DNA of 64,000 nucleotides from Streptomyces venezuelae (lineage in GTDB: Bacteria > Actinomycetota > Actinomycetes > Streptomycetales > Streptomycetaceae): positions 186,001 through 250,000 of the forward strand of contig NZ_CP029192.1 in assembly GCF_008642315.1 (NCBI RefSeq). Reading direction: 5' to 3'. The notes below the pieces were generated by a model. That model searched no databases. It was not told the origin of the DNA and saw only the letters and a program-made list of their open reading frames with translations. Numbering within the stretch: position 1 is the stretch's first letter; every line of letters begins with the position of its first letter. Both the position numbers and the translations under genes were made by a program. Positions 33,646-42,681 of the stretch are shown here, in pieces.

Positions 33646-33838
33646 GACCTGCGGCTCCTTGTTCGGTGACGGGTTGAACTGGTCGGCCGTGGGCGGCCGA
33701 CCCGCGACCTTACGCGAACTCGGTCCCCCGGTGGGACCCGACCCCGATCATGAGACGGCTGCTTGTGACCACCTTCACACGCGAGGGGCGGTCGGGGCCG
33801 GTGAAGCCTAGGGTGACCGTGTGCGCGAGGAGAGCATC

Positions 33839-34825
33839 GTGGTGTCGCCCGTCGTGCGGCGCCGGGCCGAGCTGCTCGGAGCGGCCGGTGAGGAGTGGCT
33901 GGCGGGGCTGCCCGCGCTCGTCGCCGACCTCGCGCGCCGGTGGTCCGTGACGGTCGGGGCGCCGTTCCGTGCGGGAGCGGGCGGTTACGTGGCGCGGGCC
34001 CGCGCCGAGGACGGCACGGCCCTGGTCCTCAAGCTGGCGCTGCCCGAGCCCGGGAGCGCGGGGCAGATCGCCACCCTCCTGCGCGCCGGAGGACGCGGCT
34101 ACGTACGCGTGCTCGACCACGACGCCGACCGCTTCGCGCTGCTCATGGAGCACCTCGGCGCACCGCTGTCGGAGCTCGCGCTCCCGCCCGAGCGGCAGAT
34201 CGCCGTCCTGTGCGCGACGCTGCGCCGGGTCTGGCAGGTCCCGCGCTCCCCCGATCTGCTCACGGAGGCCGCCGACGAGGACAAGGCCACCGGTCTCGCC
34301 GTGCTCGTCGAGCGCTTGTGGAGGGACCTGGACCGTCCGTGCTCCGTCGCCGCGTACGACAGGGCCATGACGTACGCCGAGCGCCGCGCCAGCGCCCACC
34401 GCGCGTCCCGGGCCGTGGTCGTCCACGGCGACCCGCACCCGGGCAACCTGCTCAGGCTTCCCGCTTCGGGGACGCCGCGAGCGGGGGCGGAGAGCGGCTT
34501 CGTCTTCGTCGACCCCGACGGCTTCCTCGCGGACCCCGCGTACGACCTGGGTGTCGTCCTCCGCGACTGGTGCGCCGAGCTTCTGTCCGGCGACGCGCGA
34601 CGGCTGGCCCGCCGCTACTGCGCGCTGCTGGCCGAGGAGAGCGGGGCCGACGCCACGGCCGTCTGGGAGTGGGGCTACCTCGAACGCGTCTCGACGGCGC
34701 TCTACCTCCTCGCCCACGGCGCGGAGGCGCCGAGCCGCCCGTACTTCGCGACGGCGGAGATCCTCGCGGACGTAGACGTAGACGGAGACGGAGACGGAGA
34801 CGGAGACGGAGACGTGGGCGCGTAG
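33839..34825 (+). CDS. Aminoglycoside/hydroxyurea-type phosphotransferase
   Basis: 328 residues from GTG with GAGGAG 6 nt before it; an earlier GTG (33821) has no ribosome site. Kinase-fold motifs: ATP-lysine region TALVLKLALPEPG, catalytic loop VVHGDPHPGNLLR and metal site VDPDGFLADPAYDLGVVLRD. This matches the APH(6)/hydroxyurea phosphotransferase group that inactivates small molecules by phosphorylation. The extreme C-terminus is an Asp/Gly repeat encoded by a hexanucleotide tandem repeat. Transcribed alone; it may be a resistance or housekeeping kinase. Confidence 0.88.
   Translation: MVSPVVRRRAELLGAAGEEWLAGLPALVADLARRWSVTVGAPFRAGAGGYVARARAEDGTALVLKLALPEPGSAGQIATLLRAGGRGYVRVLDHDADRFALLMEHLGAPLSELALPPERQIAVLCATLRRVWQVPRSPDLLTEAADEDKATGLAVLVERLWRDLDRPCSVAAYDRAMTYAERRASAHRASRAVVVHGDPHPGNLLRLPASGTPRAGAESGFVFVDPDGFLADPAYDLGVVLRDWCAELLSGDARRLARRYCALLAEESGADATAVWEWGYLERVSTALYLLAHGAEAPSRPYFATAEILADVDVDGDGDGDGDGDVGA
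34769..34816 (+). repeat. Hexanucleotide tandem repeat in coding sequence
   Basis: Eight consecutive 6-nt units: GACGTA twice, GACGGA five times, GACGTG once. They encode Asp-Val/Asp-Gly pairs at the kinase C-terminus. The unit size is a multiple of three, so slippage would change length without a frameshift. Confidence 0.9.
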
Positions 34826-34902
34826 CGGGCGTGAGGGACTGGCGCATTCGGGTACCCGGAGCACTCGCAGACGGATTCGCCCACGGGCCCAAGGAGGCGT
34901 CC

Positions 34903-35094
34903 ATGCCACTCACCTTCCGCAAGAGTCTCCGGATCCTTCCCGGGGTGCGCCTGAACATCAACAAGCGCTCGTGGTCCCTGACCACGGGCGGCAGGCACGG
35001 CCCCCGGCGCACCCACAGCAGCACCGGCCGCCGCACGACATCGATGGACCTGCCCGGCCCGTTCGGCTGGCGCCGCACCACGAAGCGTCGATGA
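34903..35094 (+). CDS. DUF4236 family small protein
   Basis: 63 residues, AAGGAGG 7 nt before ATG. The sequence MPLTFRKSLRILPGVRLNIN followed by KRSWSLTTGGRHGPRR and a conserved-looking SSTGRRTTSMDLPGPFGWR matches the small basic DUF4236 group (family start FRKSxxIxPGVRxNxS). The function of the family is unknown. It ends 48 nt before the Thr leader peptide; no terminator is obvious between them, so readthrough into the attenuator is possible. Confidence 0.8.
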   Translation: MPLTFRKSLRILPGVRLNINKRSWSLTTGGRHGPRRTHSSTGRRTTSMDLPGPFGWRRTTKRR

Positions 35095-35129
35095 CGAAAA
35101 AGCACGTGCCGTGGCGGATCGCCCTCTGT

Positions 35130-35135
35130 TACGGT
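35130..35135 (+). promoter_or_regulatory. Possible -10 box of the Thr leader transcript
   Basis: TACGGT ends 7 nt before the ATG of the leader peptide, which has no Shine-Dalgarno. A transcript beginning at or next to that ATG would be leaderless, as actinobacterial attenuator peptides often are. No convincing -35 seen. Confidence 0.4.
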
Positions 35136-35142
35136 CCCCGAC

Positions 35143-35196
35143 ATGAACAAGCGCGCTGCGATGACGACGACGCCGGAGAGTGTCCCGGCGCGCTGA
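35143..35196 (+). CDS. Threonine-rich leader peptide of the tRNA synthetase gene
   Basis: A 17-codon frame, MNKRAAMTTTPESVPAR then TGA, with three consecutive ACG threonine codons at 35164-35172. It ends 85 nt before the threonyl-tRNA synthetase start and is followed by a strong terminator hairpin. Thr codons in a leader before a Thr-charging enzyme are the hallmark of ribosome-mediated attenuation. The peptide itself is not expected to have another function. Confidence 0.8.
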   Translation: MNKRAAMTTTPESVPAR

Positions 35197-35243
35197 CCGA
35201 TGTCTCAGTCCGAAGCCCCGGGGCGAGTGCCCCGGGGCTTCGG
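35151..35243 (+). promoter_or_regulatory. Transcription attenuator with alternative hairpins
   Basis: Pause structure: GCGCGC (35151-35156) with GCGCGC (35188-35193), inner CGCCGG (35171-35176) with CCGGCG (35185-35190), enclosing the Thr codons. Terminator: 35210-35224 with 35229-35243. Antiterminator: GTCCCGG (35182-35188) can pair with CCGGGGC (35218-35224), the terminator's left arm, with a single G-U. A ribosome stalled at Thr codons would free the antiterminator arm; one reaching the stop codon (35194) would cover it and allow termination. Confidence 0.75.
35210..35243 (+). terminator. Attenuator terminator hairpin
   Basis: Perfect 15-bp stem CCGAAGCCCCGGGGC / GCCCCGGGGCTTCGG with GAGT loop, followed by CTTGTGG. 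It lies between the leader peptide and the synthetase gene on the same strand, so it must be conditional for the gene to be expressed. Confidence 0.85.
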
Positions 35244-35281
35244 CTTGTGGTCACTCGCCTCACGTCCGCGAGGAGACCCCC

Positions 35282-36550
35282 ATGAACACCGCCATGAGAG
35301 ACCGCGCCGCCGGCCACGACCACCGCAGACTCGGCCGTGAGCTGGGCCTGTTCGGCACCGATCCGCTGATCGGCGCGGGACTGCCGTACTGGCTGCCGGA
35401 CGGAGCCGCCGTGCGGCACGCCCTGGAGGAGTACATCCGCGACGCCGAGCGGCGCGCCGGCTACCGGCACGTGTACTCGCCCGTGCTCGGAAAGCGGGAG
35501 CTGTACGAGATCTCAGGGCACTGGTCGCACTACAGCGACGACATGTTCCCGCCGATGCAGCTGGGCGGCGAGGAAGTGGTGCTGCGGCCGAGCCTCTGTC
35601 CGCACCACGCGGTGATGTACCGCTCCCGTTCCCACAGTTACCGCGAGCTGCCGCTGCGCATGGCCGAGACCGGCGGCATGTACCGCGCCGAACTCTCCGG
35701 TGTGCTCGGCGGGTTGAACCGCGTCCGCGCCATCCATCTCAACGACGCCCACGTCTTCTGCACCTTGGACCAGGTCGCCGACGAGGCGCGGGCCGCCCTG
35801 GAAATGATCCGTCGCGCATACGACGCGCTCGGCATCCGGCCCGCCCGCTTCCGGCTGTCCCTGCCGGGCCCCGGCGGCAAGTACGTCGCCGATCCCGAGA
35901 AGTGGCGGCGGTCCACCGCCCTGCTCACCGAAGTGCTGGACGGCTCCGGGCTGTCGTACGAGGCCGCCGAGGGCGAGGCGGCGTTCTACGGTTCGAAGAT
36001 CGACGTGCAGGTCGTGGACGCGGCGGGCCGTGAGTCCACCCTCTCCACCGTCCAGGTCGACTTCCACCAGCCCGAGCGGTTCGATCTGCACTACATCGGC
36101 GCGGACGGCGCCAAGCACCGCCCGGTGATGGTCCACCGCAGCATCATCGGCAGCGTCGAGAGAGCGGTCGCGCATCTCGTCGAACGGCACGGCGGCGCTT
36201 TCCCCGCCTGGCTCGCGCCCGTCCAGCTGGCGGTCCTGCCGGTGTCCGAGGCCCAACTGCCGGGTGCTGAGGATCTGTTGCGGCGGTGCGCCGAGGTCGG
36301 TCTGCGGGCCGAGCTCGCCGGCCCCGAGCTCGGCAGTCTGGGCGCGCGCGTCCGGGCCGCCCGCCTCGTGCCCTATCAGGTCGTGATCGGCGCCAAGGAG
36401 GACGCCGAAGGCCTGGTCGCGCTCCGGCTGCGCGACGGTCGGCGCATCGACGCGATGCCGGCCGCCGACGCCCTCGCCCGGATCGGCGAACTCGTCGGGG
36501 CACACCGCACCGAGCTGTGGGACGGCGGGGACAGCGGGGACGGCGAGTAA
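35282..36550 (+). CDS. Threonyl-tRNA synthetase paralogue lacking TGS and editing domains
   Basis: 422 residues, GAGGAG 6 nt before ATG. It corresponds to only the class II catalytic core plus anticodon-binding domain of ThrRS, which normally also has N-terminal TGS and editing domains (~640 residues). Motif 2 region RMAETGGMYRAELSGVLGGL then NRVRAIHLNDAHVFC, and motif 3 HRSIIGSVERAVAHLVE. The three zinc ligands of ThrRS are present in context: Cys in PSLCPHH, His in NDAHVFC and His in RPVMVHRS. The C-terminal HGTP domain runs from LAPVQLAVLPVSEAQ. An active but non-editing Thr-charging (or Thr-like-activating) enzyme is expected, controlled by Thr attenuation. Confidence 0.9.
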   Translation: MNTAMRDRAAGHDHRRLGRELGLFGTDPLIGAGLPYWLPDGAAVRHALEEYIRDAERRAGYRHVYSPVLGKRELYEISGHWSHYSDDMFPPMQLGGEEVVLRPSLCPHHAVMYRSRSHSYRELPLRMAETGGMYRAELSGVLGGLNRVRAIHLNDAHVFCTLDQVADEARAALEMIRRAYDALGIRPARFRLSLPGPGGKYVADPEKWRRSTALLTEVLDGSGLSYEAAEGEAAFYGSKIDVQVVDAAGRESTLSTVQVDFHQPERFDLHYIGADGAKHRPVMVHRSIIGSVERAVAHLVERHGGAFPAWLAPVQLAVLPVSEAQLPGAEDLLRRCAEVGLRAELAGPELGSLGARVRAARLVPYQVVIGAKEDAEGLVALRLRDGRRIDAMPAADALARIGELVGAHRTELWDGGDSGDGE

Positions 36551-36584
36551 CCGGGCCGCGGGCGAGCGGGCGAGCGGGCGAGAG

Positions 36585-37199
36585 TCAGAATGCGCCGATG
36601 ACCAGCGTGAGCCCCATGACCGTCATCGTCGCGGCGATCAGGAAGTCCAGCGCGCGCCAGGAGGCGGGCCGCGCGAAGAAGCCGCTGAGCAGCCGCGCGC
36701 CGTACCCGAGCGCGGCGAACCAGCAGACGCTGCCGAGCATCGCGCCCGCCCCGAAGGCCCAGCGGAGCGCGTCGTGTCCCGCGGCGACCGAGCCGAGGAG
36801 GAGGACGGTGTCGAGGTAGACGTGCGGGTTGAGCCAGGTCATGGCCAGGCAGGCGAGCAGGGCGCCGCGCCGTGACCCGGCCGTCGCGCCCGTCGCCGTC
36901 ATGGCGGTGGGGCGCAGGGCACGGCGTGCGGCGAGCACGGCGTACGAGAGGAGGAAGCCTCCGCCTATCAGGCCGACGAGGGTCAGCGCGGGCGGCCAGG
37001 CCGTGACCACCGTGCCGACTCCGGCCACGCCCGCCGCGATCAGCACCATGTCGGAGAGCGCGCAGATGGTGACCACGCTGAGCACCGACTGGCGTCGGAT
37101 GCCCTGGCGCAGGACGAAGGCGTTCTGTGATCCGATGGCGACGATGAGCGAGAGCCCGGTGCCGAATCCGGCGGCCGCGGCGGTCAGTGCTGTTCCCAT
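36585..37199 (-). CDS. LysE/ArgO-family amino-acid exporter
   Basis: 204 residues, six hydrophobic segments. The family start signature is FGTGLSLIVAIGSQNAFVLR QG region (GSQNAFVLRQG), and MTWLNPHVYLDTVLLLGSVA is the second conserved segment. These proteins export basic amino acids or related compounds across the cytoplasmic membrane. Divergent from an ArgP/LysG-type LysR activator across 67 nt, the arrangement in Corynebacterium lysE-lysG. The substrate may be Arg, Lys or a hydroxylated or antimetabolite analogue. Confidence 0.92.
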   Translation of the reverse strand: MGTALTAAAAGFGTGLSLIVAIGSQNAFVLRQGIRRQSVLSVVTICALSDMVLIAAGVAGVGTVVTAWPPALTLVGLIGGGFLLSYAVLAARRALRPTAMTATGATAGSRRGALLACLAMTWLNPHVYLDTVLLLGSVAAGHDALRWAFGAGAMLGSVCWFAALGYGARLLSGFFARPASWRALDFLIAATMTVMGLTLVIGAF

Positions 37200-38805: not shown

Positions 38806-39612
38806 ATGCGACCGGGCGAGCGGATCGGGGGCCTCGTTCAGTCCCTCTCGGAACACCTCGTCAGCAATGTCGAGGAACATCTGCTGGAGGGCGCGCGCCG
38901 CGCTTTTCTGCAGAACGGATTCACGAAATTACCCTTCTTGGTGCCCGACCGGGTCAAGTCGTCGGTCGCGGACGAAATAGAGAATCTCGTCGCCGAACAC
39001 GGCGTGCGGCGCGGGATGAGTTTCAAGGAAACCGGCGGCACGCCGCGACAGATGCGCAATGTGCGCCATCGGGAGATCAGCGAGCACGGGACCGTGATCC
39101 CGCACGTGTATGCGTCCACCGATCTGCTCGATGCGCTGGGGAGGGTCGCCGGTGAGCCGGTGCTCCCGTGCCCCTACGAGCCGGAGCGGTACGTGATCAC
39201 CGAGCTGGAGCAGTCCGGCGACACGCACGGGTGGCACTGGGACGACTACAGCTTCGCGCTCGTATGGGTGGTCGCCTGTCCGCCCGCCGAGCACGGCGGG
39301 TTCGTGCAGTGCGTGCCCCGCACGTACTGGAACAAGCAGGATCCGCAGCTGCACCGCCAGTTCATCTCGCAGCCCATCCACTCCTTCGAACTGCGGCCCG
39401 GCGACCTCTACTTGATGCGGACCGACACCACCCTGCACCGCGTCTACCCGCTCACCAGCGGGCGGCGCCTCATCATCAACATGGGGTACGCGTCCCGCGC
39501 CGACCTGCACAAGCCGATCAGCCACGAGACCATGGACGGGCTCTGGAACGGCTCCCGCGAGGACCAGACTGAGCGGATGGACCACACAGATCAGGCGGAG
39601 CAGACCGTATGA
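38806..39612 (+). CDS. Fe(II)/2-oxoglutarate oxygenase, BesD/HalD-like with hydroxylase triad
   Basis: 268 residues, GGGGAG 6 nt before ATG. The iron site is visible: His144-x-Asp146 in HGWHWDDYSF and distal His211 in TTLHRVYPL, with Arg220/221 (SGRRLIINM) for 2-oxoglutarate. As I recall, the amino-acid halogenase BesD uses His137/His204 with Gly139; the 67-residue spacing is identical here, but Asp146 restores a carboxylate ligand, predicting hydroxylation not halogenation. MSFKETGGTPRQMRNVR and PYEPERYVIT also fit the family, which acts on free polar amino acids. First gene of a four-gene operon with 4-nt overlaps. Confidence 0.88.
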   Translation: MRPGERIGGLVQSLSEHLVSNVEEHLLEGARRAFLQNGFTKLPFLVPDRVKSSVADEIENLVAEHGVRRGMSFKETGGTPRQMRNVRHREISEHGTVIPHVYASTDLLDALGRVAGEPVLPCPYEPERYVITELEQSGDTHGWHWDDYSFALVWVVACPPAEHGGFVQCVPRTYWNKQDPQLHRQFISQPIHSFELRPGDLYLMRTDTTLHRVYPLTSGRRLIINMGYASRADLHKPISHETMDGLWNGSREDQTERMDHTDQAEQTV

Positions 39613-40937
39613 CCCCAGTGGAGGGGGCCACGGCGGCAGCGCCCGGGCCCCCTCGACTGGTCAGACAGTTGGGCACATCGGGGCTCGTCGCGCACTACGT
39701 CACCTCGGTGATGGGCGCGGGCGTGCTGTTGATCCCCGCCCTCGCCTGGGCGGAGGCCGGGCCGCTGTCCCTCGTCGCGTGGGGGGTGCTGATCCTCTAC
39801 AGCTATCCCTTCGCGCTCGTCTTCGCGAAGCTGTCCGTGCGGCATCCCACGAGCAAGGGCGTCGCGCAGTTCGTGGAAGCGGCGTTCGGCGCGAGGGCGG
39901 GCCGGATCGCCGCCGTATTCCTGCTCCTCACGCTGCTCGCGGGCAATCCGGTGCTTGGGCTCGCGGCCGGCCGCTATCTGCTCGCGGCGGTCGATCCCGC
40001 GGCGTCGAACCGGGCGTCGCTCCTCGCGGGCGCCGCCGTCATCGTGTTCTGCGTCGCGCTCAACCTGTGGGGAATCAGGGTGAGTACCCGCGCTCAGATG
40101 GTGGTGCTCGGTTCCGTGGTACTGCTCCTGGCCGTCGTCATCGTCCTGGCCCTGCCCGAGGGGGACTACGGACGCCTCACCCCGTTCGCCCCGCACGGCT
40201 GGAGCTCCCTCGGCAGTACGGTGCTCATCTGCTTCTTCGGATTCATCGGCTGGGAGAACGCGGCCCCGGTCGCCGAGGAGGTGCGGGACCCCGAACGCAC
40301 CTTTCCCCAAGGGATTCTCTACGCCGTCAGTTGCGTGGGACTTCTGTATTTCGCCATGGCGTTCACCGTCTCCGTGGCCCTGCCCGAGGCCACCGCGGGC
40401 CAGTCCGATCTGACGGCGTTCGTCAGGCTCCTCCAGGTCGCCACGGGCTCGGGGCTGGAGAGCACCGGCTACCTCGTCGCGGGCGTCCTGCTGCTGCTCA
40501 CCACCAACGCCTGGTGCCTGGGCACCTCGCGCGTCGTCTTCGCCCTCGCCCGGGACGGCATCCTGCCGGTCCGGCTCAGCCGGCTCTCCCGGCACGGCAG
40601 GGTCCCCGCACGCGCGGTCCTCGCACTCCTGCCCGGCTACGCCGTGTCGGTGCTGCTGCTCCTGGCCACCGACTCCAGCGAGACGACGCTGATCAAAGCA
40701 TCGTCGGCCACCTACCTGCTCATCTTCCTCATGGCCTTCCTCGCCGCCGCCCGGCTCCTGCCCCCGGGCGGCACCTCCCGGCTGAACCTGCTGCTCATCG
40801 CGACGACCGTCGTGATACTGCCGTTCTTCGGCGTCAGTGTCGTCATCGCCCTGGCGATGCTGCTCCTCTCCGTCGTCGCCGAGCGCCGGCTGCGCAAGCG
40901 CGTCCCCCCGTCCACCGACTCAGGAGTACTCACGTGA
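39609..40937 (+). CDS. APC-family amino-acid permease
   Basis: 442 residues, twelve hydrophobic segments; start overlaps the hydroxylase stop (ATGA 39609-39612). The signature of the family is in helix 1 (VTSVMGAGVLLIPALAWAEAG) and the FFGFIGWENAAPVAEEVRDP segment of helix 6-8 type. It transports an amino acid or amine across the cytoplasmic membrane. Inside this operon it most likely brings in the substrate or moves the product of the hydroxylase/carbamoyltransferase pathway. Next start overlaps its stop (GTGA). Confidence 0.9.
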   Translation: MTPVEGATAAAPGPPRLVRQLGTSGLVAHYVTSVMGAGVLLIPALAWAEAGPLSLVAWGVLILYSYPFALVFAKLSVRHPTSKGVAQFVEAAFGARAGRIAAVFLLLTLLAGNPVLGLAAGRYLLAAVDPAASNRASLLAGAAVIVFCVALNLWGIRVSTRAQMVVLGSVVLLLAVVIVLALPEGDYGRLTPFAPHGWSSLGSTVLICFFGFIGWENAAPVAEEVRDPERTFPQGILYAVSCVGLLYFAMAFTVSVALPEATAGQSDLTAFVRLLQVATGSGLESTGYLVAGVLLLLTTNAWCLGTSRVVFALARDGILPVRLSRLSRHGRVPARAVLALLPGYAVSVLLLLATDSSETTLIKASSATYLLIFLMAFLAAARLLPPGGTSRLNLLLIATTVVILPFFGVSVVIALAMLLLSVVAERRLRKRVPPSTDSGVLT

Positions 40938-41920
40938 CCGCGCGACACATCCTGCGGATACAGGACCTCTCAGCCAAGGAAATGTGCTCCCTGCTCGACC
41001 TCGCCGAAGCGATGAAGCGCGGCGACGACACGAGCGCCCATCTGGCGGGCCGCTGCATAGGCCTGCTCTTCAACGTGCCGTCCACCAGGACCCGGGTCTC
41101 GTTCCAGGTCGCGGCCTCCCAACTCGGCGCCGACAGCTACCCGTACGGGGTCGAGGAGCTGCGGCTCGCCAACCGCGAGTCGATCGAGGACACCATCGGC
41201 GTCCTCAACCGCTACCTCGACGCCCTCGTGGTGCGCTGGTACGACATGAACGACTACGGCGCCGGGCACCGCAGGCTGCGCGCGATGGCCGAGCAGGCCA
41301 CGATCCCCGTCATCAACGCGCTCGACGACGAGGAGCACCCCTGCCAGGTCCTCGCCGACCTCATGACGCTGCGCGAACTGTACGGCGGGGAGGTTCCGGC
41401 CCGACGGGTCGTGTACGCCTGGTCGTACTCCCCGCGGCAGAAGACCCCCGGCGTCCTGCACTCCTCCATGATGGCCGCGGCCCTCCTCGGCCACCGCGTC
41501 ACCGTCGCCCATCCGCCCGGCTTCGCCCCCGAGGAGCGCGTGACCCGCGCCGCACGTGACGCCGCCGCCCGCACCGGCGCGAGCATCGAGCTCACCCACG
41601 ACCTGGAGGACGCCGTCCGCGGCTGCGCCGCCGTGTACACCCTCAGCTGGAAGTCCCCCACCCTCGCGGGCCAGGAGGAGATCCAGGCGCGGACGCGGCT
41701 CGCGGACCGGTGGCGGATCACCGAACCGCTGATGCGGCTGGCCGGGGACGAGGCCGTGTTCCTCGACTGCATGCCCACCAACCGGGGCGAGGAGGTCGAC
41801 GCCGACGTGAAGGACGGACCGCGGTCACGGATCTTCCAGCAGGCGGAGAACCGCCTGCACACGCAGAAGGCCCTGCTGACCCAGCTGTTCGACGGAACAC
41901 TCACGGGCGGCGGACGATGA
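40934..41920 (+). CDS. Atypical ornithine/aspartate-type carbamoyltransferase
   Basis: 328 residues from GTG overlapping the permease stop. Carbamoyl-phosphate motifs are intact: STRTR at 50-54 and HPCQVLADLMTL at 135-146. The amino-acid side is different from ornithine transcarbamylase: HCLP is DCMP (278-281) and the SMG loop is replaced by TLSWKSP (236-242); the residue after STRTRVSF is Gln rather than Glu. So carbamoylation of a non-ornithine acceptor, possibly the hydroxylated amino acid made by the first gene, is predicted. It could form a carbamoyl ester, ureido group or modified citrulline. No arginine-pathway neighbours are in this operon. Confidence 0.85.
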   Translation: MTARHILRIQDLSAKEMCSLLDLAEAMKRGDDTSAHLAGRCIGLLFNVPSTRTRVSFQVAASQLGADSYPYGVEELRLANRESIEDTIGVLNRYLDALVVRWYDMNDYGAGHRRLRAMAEQATIPVINALDDEEHPCQVLADLMTLRELYGGEVPARRVVYAWSYSPRQKTPGVLHSSMMAAALLGHRVTVAHPPGFAPEERVTRAARDAAARTGASIELTHDLEDAVRGCAAVYTLSWKSPTLAGQEEIQARTRLADRWRITEPLMRLAGDEAVFLDCMPTNRGEEVDADVKDGPRSRIFQQAENRLHTQKALLTQLFDGTLTGGGR

Positions 41921-42681
41921 GGGCGTCACGGTCCGGCACCCGGGTGGCGCTGGTCACCGGCGGCGGCGGAGGCATCGGCAGCGCCGTCGCGCGACGGCTC
42001 GCCGACGAGGGCGCCGCCGTCGCGGTCGTCGACCGGGACGACGCGGCGGAGACCGTGGCCCGCGGCATCCGCGCCGACGGCGGGCGCGCCGAGGCGTTCC
42101 TGTGCGACGTCTCCGACGAGGAGGCGGTGCCGGCCCTCGTGAAGGACGTCGTGGGGCGGCTCGGCGACATCACCGACGCGTGCTGCGTGGCGGGGAGCAT
42201 CCGGCGCGGTACGGTGCGGGACCTGTCCCTGGAGGACTGGCACGGGTCGTTCGCGGACAACGTGGACTCGGTGTTCCTCGTCTGCCGGGCGGTGCTCCCG
42301 CTGATGGAGCGGGCGGGCCGCGGCAGCATCGTGACGGTGGCCTCCGGGTGGGGGCTGCGCGCCGGGGAGAAGGCGGCCGCGTACTGCACGGCGAAGGCCG
42401 GTGTGGTGATGCTGACGCAGGCGATGGCACTGGACCACAGCCCCGGGGGTGTCCGGGTCAACTGCGTCGCCCCCGGTGACACGCGCACGCCCATGCTCGC
42501 CCGAGAGGCGCGCCAGCTGGGCCAGTCGGACGCCGATTTCCTCGCGGAGGCCGCCAACCGGCCGCTGGGCCGCATCGGCACGCCCGAGGACATAGCTGCC
42601 GCTGTCGCGTTCCTCGCCGGTCCCGACGCCGACTTCGTCACGGGGAGCGTGCTCTCGGTCGATGGCGGGGGGAGCGTCTGA
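41917..42681 (+). CDS. Short-chain dehydrogenase/reductase
   Basis: 254 residues; ATG overlaps the carbamoyltransferase stop (41917-41920). Cofactor loop TGGGGGIGSAVARRL, acidic residue after beta2 (VVDRD) pointing to NAD(H), active-site Ser in TVASGWG and the YCTAK (Y-x3-K) pair. The C-terminus is PEDIAAAVAFLAGPDADFVT then GSVLSVDGGG. Last gene of the hydroxylase operon; it probably oxidises or reduces the hydroxyl/keto group of the pathway intermediate. Confidence 0.92.
   Translation: MRASRSGTRVALVTGGGGGIGSAVARRLADEGAAVAVVDRDDAAETVARGIRADGGRAEAFLCDVSDEEAVPALVKDVVGRLGDITDACCVAGSIRRGTVRDLSLEDWHGSFADNVDSVFLVCRAVLPLMERAGRGSIVTVASGWGLRAGEKAAAYCTAKAGVVMLTQAMALDHSPGGVRVNCVAPGDTRTPMLAREARQLGQSDADFLAEAANRPLGRIGTPEDIAAAVAFLAGPDADFVTGSVLSVDGGGSV

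Follow-up and report, generated by a model that had tools for sequence, protein, structure and literature searches.

How is a spare threonyl-tRNA synthetase (ThrRS) gene of Streptomyces venezuelae controlled, and to which signal would that control respond? The gene, thrS2, lies in a 64,000-nucleotide stretch of DNA (the window; contig NZ_CP029192.1, positions 186,001 to 250,000) of a genome of 8.94 Mb in one contig, and it is preceded by a short reading frame with a run of Thr codons, thrL. Our reading of the locus, to which we give a probability of roughly 85% and which comes from comparing sequences, is that thrL is a ribosome-mediated transcription attenuator that turns on the auxiliary ThrRS when ACG-reading threonyl-tRNA is short. 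Statements attributed below to papers with PMC numbers refer to excerpts of those papers.

The thrS2 gene and its leader

The gene, its leader and the putative promoter comprise the following features.

35282..36550 (+): thrS2, threonyl-tRNA synthetase paralogue of 422 aa, with 9 Thr codons, all ACC
35270..35275 (+): Shine-Dalgarno (SD) sequence of thrS2, GAGGAG
35143..35196 (+): leader ORF thrL, ATG 35143 to TGA 35196, peptide MNKRAAMTTTPESVPAR
35164..35172 (+): control codons ACG ACG ACG, invariant in 65 distinct leader sequences
35130..35135 (+): -10 element TACGGT, 7 nt upstream of the leader start

An earlier note on this DNA had described a 17-codon frame with three adjacent ACG codons and no SD, followed by a ThrRS paralogue, and these elements are all present. 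The thrS2 product consists of a class II catalytic core and an anticodon-binding domain only, with no TGS or editing domain found, and a separate housekeeping thrS elsewhere in the genome is 38% identical to it. In 110 of 110 paralogues, RPSLCPHH stands where the housekeeping ThrRS of this genome has KAMNCPMH, replacing the MNCP motif at the zinc cysteine. We regard this substitution as a lead for possible altered specificity or resistance. Elsewhere in ThrRS, a change of Gly463 to Ser weakens obafluorin and borrelidin (PMC11252418). A change of this type, the known inhibitor-resistance marker, is not present in thrS2, where FYG is kept. The window copy reads FYGSK at this place, as compared to FYGPK in 109 of 110 copies; the site adjoins the glycine tied to inhibitor resistance.

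No SD is seen in the sequence before the thrL start. The motif TAnnnT stands before the thrL start codon in every one of 109 loci, with a spacing of 7 nt in 104 and 6 nt in 5. In a second set, the leader core was found in 59 of 60 loci (all but L156), and a looser -10 pattern in 57 of those 59. The -10 consensus of S. lividans is TAnnnT at a mean distance of 6.3 nt, and thrL of that species has a mapped start and a leaderless transcript (PMC8079986). Judging from these motifs, the thrL mRNA is very probably leaderless, with transcription beginning at the leader AUG, and this would explain why thrL has no SD.

Distribution and co-occurrence

A TTTP..VPAR leader lies upstream in 109 of the 111 loci that match the protein by tblastn. 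The two exceptions are L002, which is a housekeeping thrS, and L083, where the contig starts 152 bases before the match. The three-Thr leader also precedes 18 of 20 paralogues with 74-80% identity; the remaining two, L119 and L131, have a two-Thr form of it. From 63 further matches of a class-wide draw we took 49 loci (54-83% identity), seven of these 49 in genomes already used, and accepted a leader in 47; a regular expression flags 48, but the match at L311 was unconvincing, and L310 has none.

The synthetase gene occurs in 174 of 392 genomes of the same genus (E 1e-120); across the class, 62 of 394 genomes have it, representing 17 of 137 genera (E 1e-100). Searched with a model of the core RNA, this genome gives a single strong match; at E 1e-4 the model hits 181 of the 392 genus genomes and 6 of 396 genomes in an even draw from the phylum. 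Both leader RNA and thrS2 are found in 172 of the genus genomes and neither in 209, leaving two with thrS2 only and nine with the RNA only. Seven of these nine RNA-only places were read: four hold a broken thrS2 (frameshifted, deleted or truncated), two have lost the gene, and one lies at a contig end. At L146 and L147, no synthetase gene follows the leader and hairpin, the gene having apparently been lost. The leader, as compared across these genomes, is nearly unchanged in many actinobacteria and accompanies thrS2.

Constraint on the leader RNA

Within the leader, the codons ACG ACG ACG CCG, two variable codons and GTC CCG GCG CGC TGA form a block whose fixed codons are identical in the 65 distinct leaders. 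At fourfold-degenerate sites, leaders differ in 0 of 10500 comparisons, versus 34.1% in thrS2 (1500 sampled locus pairs). Constraint at such silent sites acts on the leader RNA. At L126, a deletion shifts the frame after TTTP, yet the stop-proximal RNA GTCCCGGCGCGCTGA is retained, and the peptide after TTTP is likewise altered at L291; hence it is the RNA, rather than the end of the peptide, that is conserved. The number of codons between MKRA and TTT varies among leaders, while the start and the Thr run stay in frame. The use of ACG is not absolute: L292 and L309 open the run of three with ACC, and TTTPET-type leaders have an additional Thr codon, likewise ACC, within the loop of hairpin P2.

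Four structures can be drawn in this RNA.

35150..35194 (+): hairpin P1, 35150-35158 with 35186-35194, enclosing the Thr codons; 97.8% of cells paired
35165..35195 (+): hairpin P2, with 35171-35176 and 35185-35190 as its core and an extension that takes in the ACG codons (RNAalifold consensus, invariant pairs)
35182..35224 (+): antiterminator, 35182-35188 with 35218-35224, plus a few inner pairs
35210..35243 (+): terminator-type hairpin CCGAAGCCCCGGGGC-GAGT-GCCCCGGGGCTTCGG, a perfect 15-bp stem with loop GAGT and no U-tract

P1 is the first hairpin that the earlier note had placed around the Thr codons, and it stands. In the RNAalifold consensus, the ACG codons form part of the 5' arm of P2, which accounts for their fixed third bases, and the two variable codons form its loop. 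The predicted alternative pairing, GTCCCGG at 35182-35188 with CCGGGGC in the left arm of the terminator (35218-35224), is likewise confirmed, with one G-U pair. Segment 35178-35224 has a minimum free energy of -18.7 kcal/mol (consensus -15.1), and folding predicts that, with P1 and P2 blocked, RNA through the terminator's left arm adopts the antiterminator. The fold of 35143-35250 beats 200 of 200 dinucleotide shuffles (z -4.74).

The 15-bp hairpin had been called a terminator. The stem is as described, and its function as a terminator is putative: a U-tract is absent after 35210-35243, and a consensus scan of 34800-36700 returned no terminator call. Across an alignment of 86 relatives, the inner 11 pairs hardly change and the outer pairs are often broken, the outermost in 49 of the 76 sequences with letters on both sides. 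(This alignment, A1, holds 86 of 95 distinct upstream regions, the nine omitted having mostly long leaders or spacers; a second, A2, was made from 31 of 43 diverse cores with three others added.) L132, a divergent orthologue, has T6 directly after its stem, and its segments AGCGCA and TGTGCT resemble, by eye, a compensated P1.

Alignment of orthologues had been proposed as a check, with a conserved Thr run and covarying stems expected, and loss of the leader frame and pairing in close relatives would have spoken against the idea. Frame and pairing are both conserved, and the Thr run is kept in all three samples (109/111, 18/20 and 47/49 loci), but the main stems do not covary. P1 shows no covariation in the alignment, the terminator none exceeding shuffles, and the RNAalifold consensus a double change in 1 of 31 pairs. 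P1, P2, the antiterminator and the terminator core are too uniform for covariation, and what they offer instead is invariance. A T-box or other known riboswitch was also considered; no Rfam match reaches the gathering score within the window, and matches near the leader are all sub-threshold.

Folding makes the terminator far stabler than the antiterminator once its right arm is present, so the switch would have to be kinetic. Kinetic switching is typical of other attenuators.

A probable second hairpin over the SD of thrS2

Two further pairings involve the region between the terminator-type stem and thrS2.

35249..35278 (+): SD-hiding hairpin, GGTC-A-CTCGC with GCGAG-GA-GACC (minimum free energy fold, pair counts)
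35222..35259 (+): alternative pairing between 35222-35229, in the region of the terminator loop, and 35252-35259; 96.9% of cells paired

Located 3' of the terminator stem, GGTCACTCGC pairs with GCGAGGAGACC and masks the SD of thrS2. The shared strand of this hairpin, CACTCGCC, could instead base-pair with GGCGAGTG at the loop of the terminator. Double changes are more frequent than after shuffling in both pairings: the loop pairing has 21 double-change cells (4.5 shuffled), and the CTCGC:GCGAG pairing over the SD, 95.1% paired, has 18 (4.3 shuffled). One column triple covaries (G/C/G in 69, A/T/A in 14 and other letters in three). The fit of loops to the strands downstream of them is 11.03, better than the 10.65 reached when they are permuted (0/2000; 206 of 219 loci parsed, 176 distinct sequences, relatedness not corrected). 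Compared with the consensus loop on the same strands, 40 of 65 variant loops do better, 9 equally well and 16 worse, and in a smaller set the gain of 50 non-consensus loops is slight (10.83 versus 10.68).

A tree-based test of covariation yielded two to four supported contrasts per pair, with no pair significant. For loop position 35225 with 35256, 2 of 2 supported contrasts agree; for 35226 with 35255, about 1.5 of 2; for 35270 with 35256, about 2.5 of 4, with 1.5 showing no difference; and for 35228 with 35253, about 0.9 of 3, with 2.0 showing no difference and the partner mostly unchanged. These data make an SD-hiding hairpin likely. A switch between it and the loop pairing is possible, the evidence being mixed.

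Might control be exerted mainly at initiation of thrS2 translation, with the loop pairing freeing the SD hairpin and little termination taking place? The terminator stem without a U-tract would suit this idea, as would the conservation of the SD hairpin and loop pairing with some compensatory changes, and the pairing partners of the loop lie 3' of the terminator hairpin, meaning that polymerase must be past them before they can act. However, when the structures were forced in equilibrium folding, SD exposure was almost the same (0.326 versus 0.345; higher in 50 of 86), the loop pairing is broken in several loci (L050, L105, L128 and L175), and L132 has its T6 tract. On balance we consider mainly translational control unlikely.

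Codon usage in thrS2

The earlier note did not mention the Thr codons of the synthetase gene. In 109 thrS2 genes with 1509 Thr codons, ACC occurs 1444 times, ACT 58 times, ACG 7 times and ACA never; the ACG codons fall in six genes, and 103 of the 109 have none. For other amino acids these genes often use G-ending codons (Ala 37%, Pro 59%, Val 35%, Ser 35%). As controls we used 426 ORFs taken from these loci and from the window, in which ACG makes up 34.6% of Thr codons and is lacking from 1 of 409 ORFs with at least nine Thr codons, and 28 housekeeping thrS genes, in which the figures are 30.2% and 1 of 28; all of these are mechanical open frames, and the housekeeping ones may include bases before the true start. 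The 20 divergent thrS2 genes have ACG at 2 of 187 Thr codons, and 18 of them are ACG-free (L194 and L198, which carry a stop inside the fetched span, are counted unchanged). Class-wide loci with a leader have ACG at 7 of 459 Thr codons. Thr content itself is low, 3.3% in thrS2 (2.3% in the divergent set); the control ORFs have 6.1% and the housekeeping thrS genes 4.5%.

Among the tRNAs read in this genome, tRNA-Thr anticodons are CGU (one), UGU (one) and GGU (two); reading covered part of the 66 tRNA places, those of Leu/Ser length being mostly left out. On our reading, ACG would be where ribosomes stall in the sensor, and the synthetase mRNA would be kept clear of this codon. Structure in the leader RNA cannot account for ACG avoidance in thrS2. 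The avoidance suggests, as independent support, that thrS2 is expressed while ACG is read slowly.

Elf et al. are said to have set out, in 2003, a theory in which leaders use the codons whose tRNA discharges first and the controlled genes avoid them. The split between thrL and thrS2 agrees with that theory of unequal isoacceptor charging; here it is nearly complete and lies in an aminoacyl-tRNA synthetase gene.

Neighbouring genes

Downstream of thrS2, 38806-42681 (+) holds in a row a HalD/BesD-type halogenase, an amino-acid permease, an ornithine-carbamoyltransferase-like enzyme and an SDR, which may form a small cluster that makes a chlorinated or modified amino acid. Upstream, a run of GACGGA/GACGTA repeats (34774-34813) lies at the 3' end of an APH-like gene (33821-34825). 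In 80 relatives, with flanks of up to 5 kb, none of eight window neighbours has a match beside thrS2 at E 1e-10. By this comparison, the genomic setting of thrS2 is not conserved.

The proximity of the cluster raises the idea that thrS2 is the self-resistance enzyme of an adjoining amino-acid antibiotic cluster, co-regulated with it. The enzyme at 38806-39612 is BesD-like and belongs to the HalD family (above the Pfam cut-off, although the NCBIfam BesD model scores below its own), and the halogenase, permease, carbamoyltransferase and SDR genes lie 2.2-6.1 kb from thrS2. Weighing against this, 0 of the 8 neighbours recur beside thrS2 in the relatives, and the ThrRS glycine tied to obafluorin and borrelidin (Gly463, PMC11252418) is unchanged, which makes self-resistance quite improbable. 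A shade less probable again is a leader RNA that serves to bind a ligand or protein, or that encodes a small protein, its Thr codons incidental to structure: the ACG codons do lie in the P2 stem with fixed third bases, but no Rfam family is reached at gathering score (sub-threshold matches only), and neither the ACG avoidance of thrS2 nor the in-frame start and Thr run, kept despite variation in MKRA-TTT length, would be explained.

A model for thrL

Starting from what can be observed at these loci (anatomy, conservation, co-occurrence and codon split), we infer ribosome stalling, termination and an inducer, as follows. Transcription would begin at the leader AUG. With tRNA-Thr charged, the ribosome would reach UGA, either the ribosome or P1/P2 would sequester CCCGGCGCGC, and the terminator hairpin would form. 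A ribosome stalled at the ACG codons would instead occupy the 5' arms of both P1 and P2, GUCCCGG would pair with the terminator's left arm, and RNA polymerase would read into thrS2. The thrS2 mRNA, nearly devoid of ACG, would still be translatable during the shortage. A second, translational layer, for which the case is weaker, may follow, in which the terminator loop competes with the SD for the same strand. The product of thrS2 would serve as a backup ThrRS when Thr-tRNA is short, owing to starvation or to an inhibitor of the housekeeping enzyme.

A more specific form of the model is tentative. In it, thrL senses the ACG-reading class of tRNA-Thr (CGU/UGU) rather than overall charging, the thrS2 mRNA is written almost wholly in ACC and ACU, and one strand swap gates both transcription (terminator) and translation (SD hairpin).

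The earlier note had invoked the logic of trp/thr/his attenuation. What remains of that parallel is a Thr-codon leader ORF (a run of three ACG codons, as read from the sequence) and mutually exclusive terminator and antiterminator pairings, conserved and predicted by folding; what falls away is an intrinsic terminator with a U-tract. The element would work like an attenuator, with a putative terminator.

Relation to known systems

The earlier note knew of no description of attenuation of an extra ThrRS in a Streptomyces, but thrL of S. lividans is already in print: thrL-thrS of strain TK24 (SLIV_19412/SLIV_19410) is listed as an attenuator, a prediction with a mapped start (PMC8079986). Like the leader in the window, it is a leaderless Thr leader before a ThrRS gene, with one hairpin lacking a U-rich sequence; trpL2 of S. 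lividans also lacks a uridine-rich sequence (PMC8079986). Its peptide, MKRVRPFLETTPGFVPAR, is that of the leader at L119 (genome G136), which precedes a thrS2 of the 76% identity class. It has two Thr codons, whereas the window leader has three. The window leader fits the same family, of the leaderless TT(T)P..VPAR type before ThrRS, and, going by the excerpted description, S. lividans thrL is the same element. Alternative pairing, codon avoidance, an SD hairpin and distribution are unreported for it in the excerpts of PMC8079986.

Attenuators have also been predicted for Streptomyces trpS2 and leuS (Seliverstov 2005, PMC1262725), which share with thrS2 a leader peptide and a terminator before a synthetase gene, in one case a second copy. 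The text of that paper has 0 occurrences of thrS and states that no conserved structures were found upstream of other amino-acid pathway genes (PMC1262725). In Anabaena, T2 is likewise a second, editing-poor ThrRS, used under stress; its control is by Zur and zinc at the promoter, without attenuation (PMC4787780).

The closest parallel in function is a spare synthetase that is induced when its tRNA is poorly charged, the auxiliary TrpRS of S. coelicolor. This indolmycin-resistant enzyme was reportedly found by experiment to be under ribosome-mediated attenuation (Vecchione and Sello, 2010). Resistance was tested there, whereas resistance through the ThrRS described here is hypothetical. Trp has one codon, so a codon split is impossible for the TrpRS system. 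The 2009 paper on this system is cited in PMC9437257.

The window element is therefore not new in principle. Breadth, RNA constraint, the codon split and the SD hairpin are what our analysis adds beyond the excerpts of PMC8079986 and PMC1262725, the literature covered being open-licence papers; for the codon split we claim no novelty. A prediction of one paragraph for one strain has become a conserved element, and the spare ThrRS that it accompanies is present in 174 of the 392 genus genomes and, class-wide, in 17 of the 137 genera drawn. With a near-complete split between an ACG sensor and an ACC/ACT enzyme, the theory of unequal tRNA charging becomes directly testable in a small system, and thrL offers a simple reporter principle for compounds directed at ThrRS.
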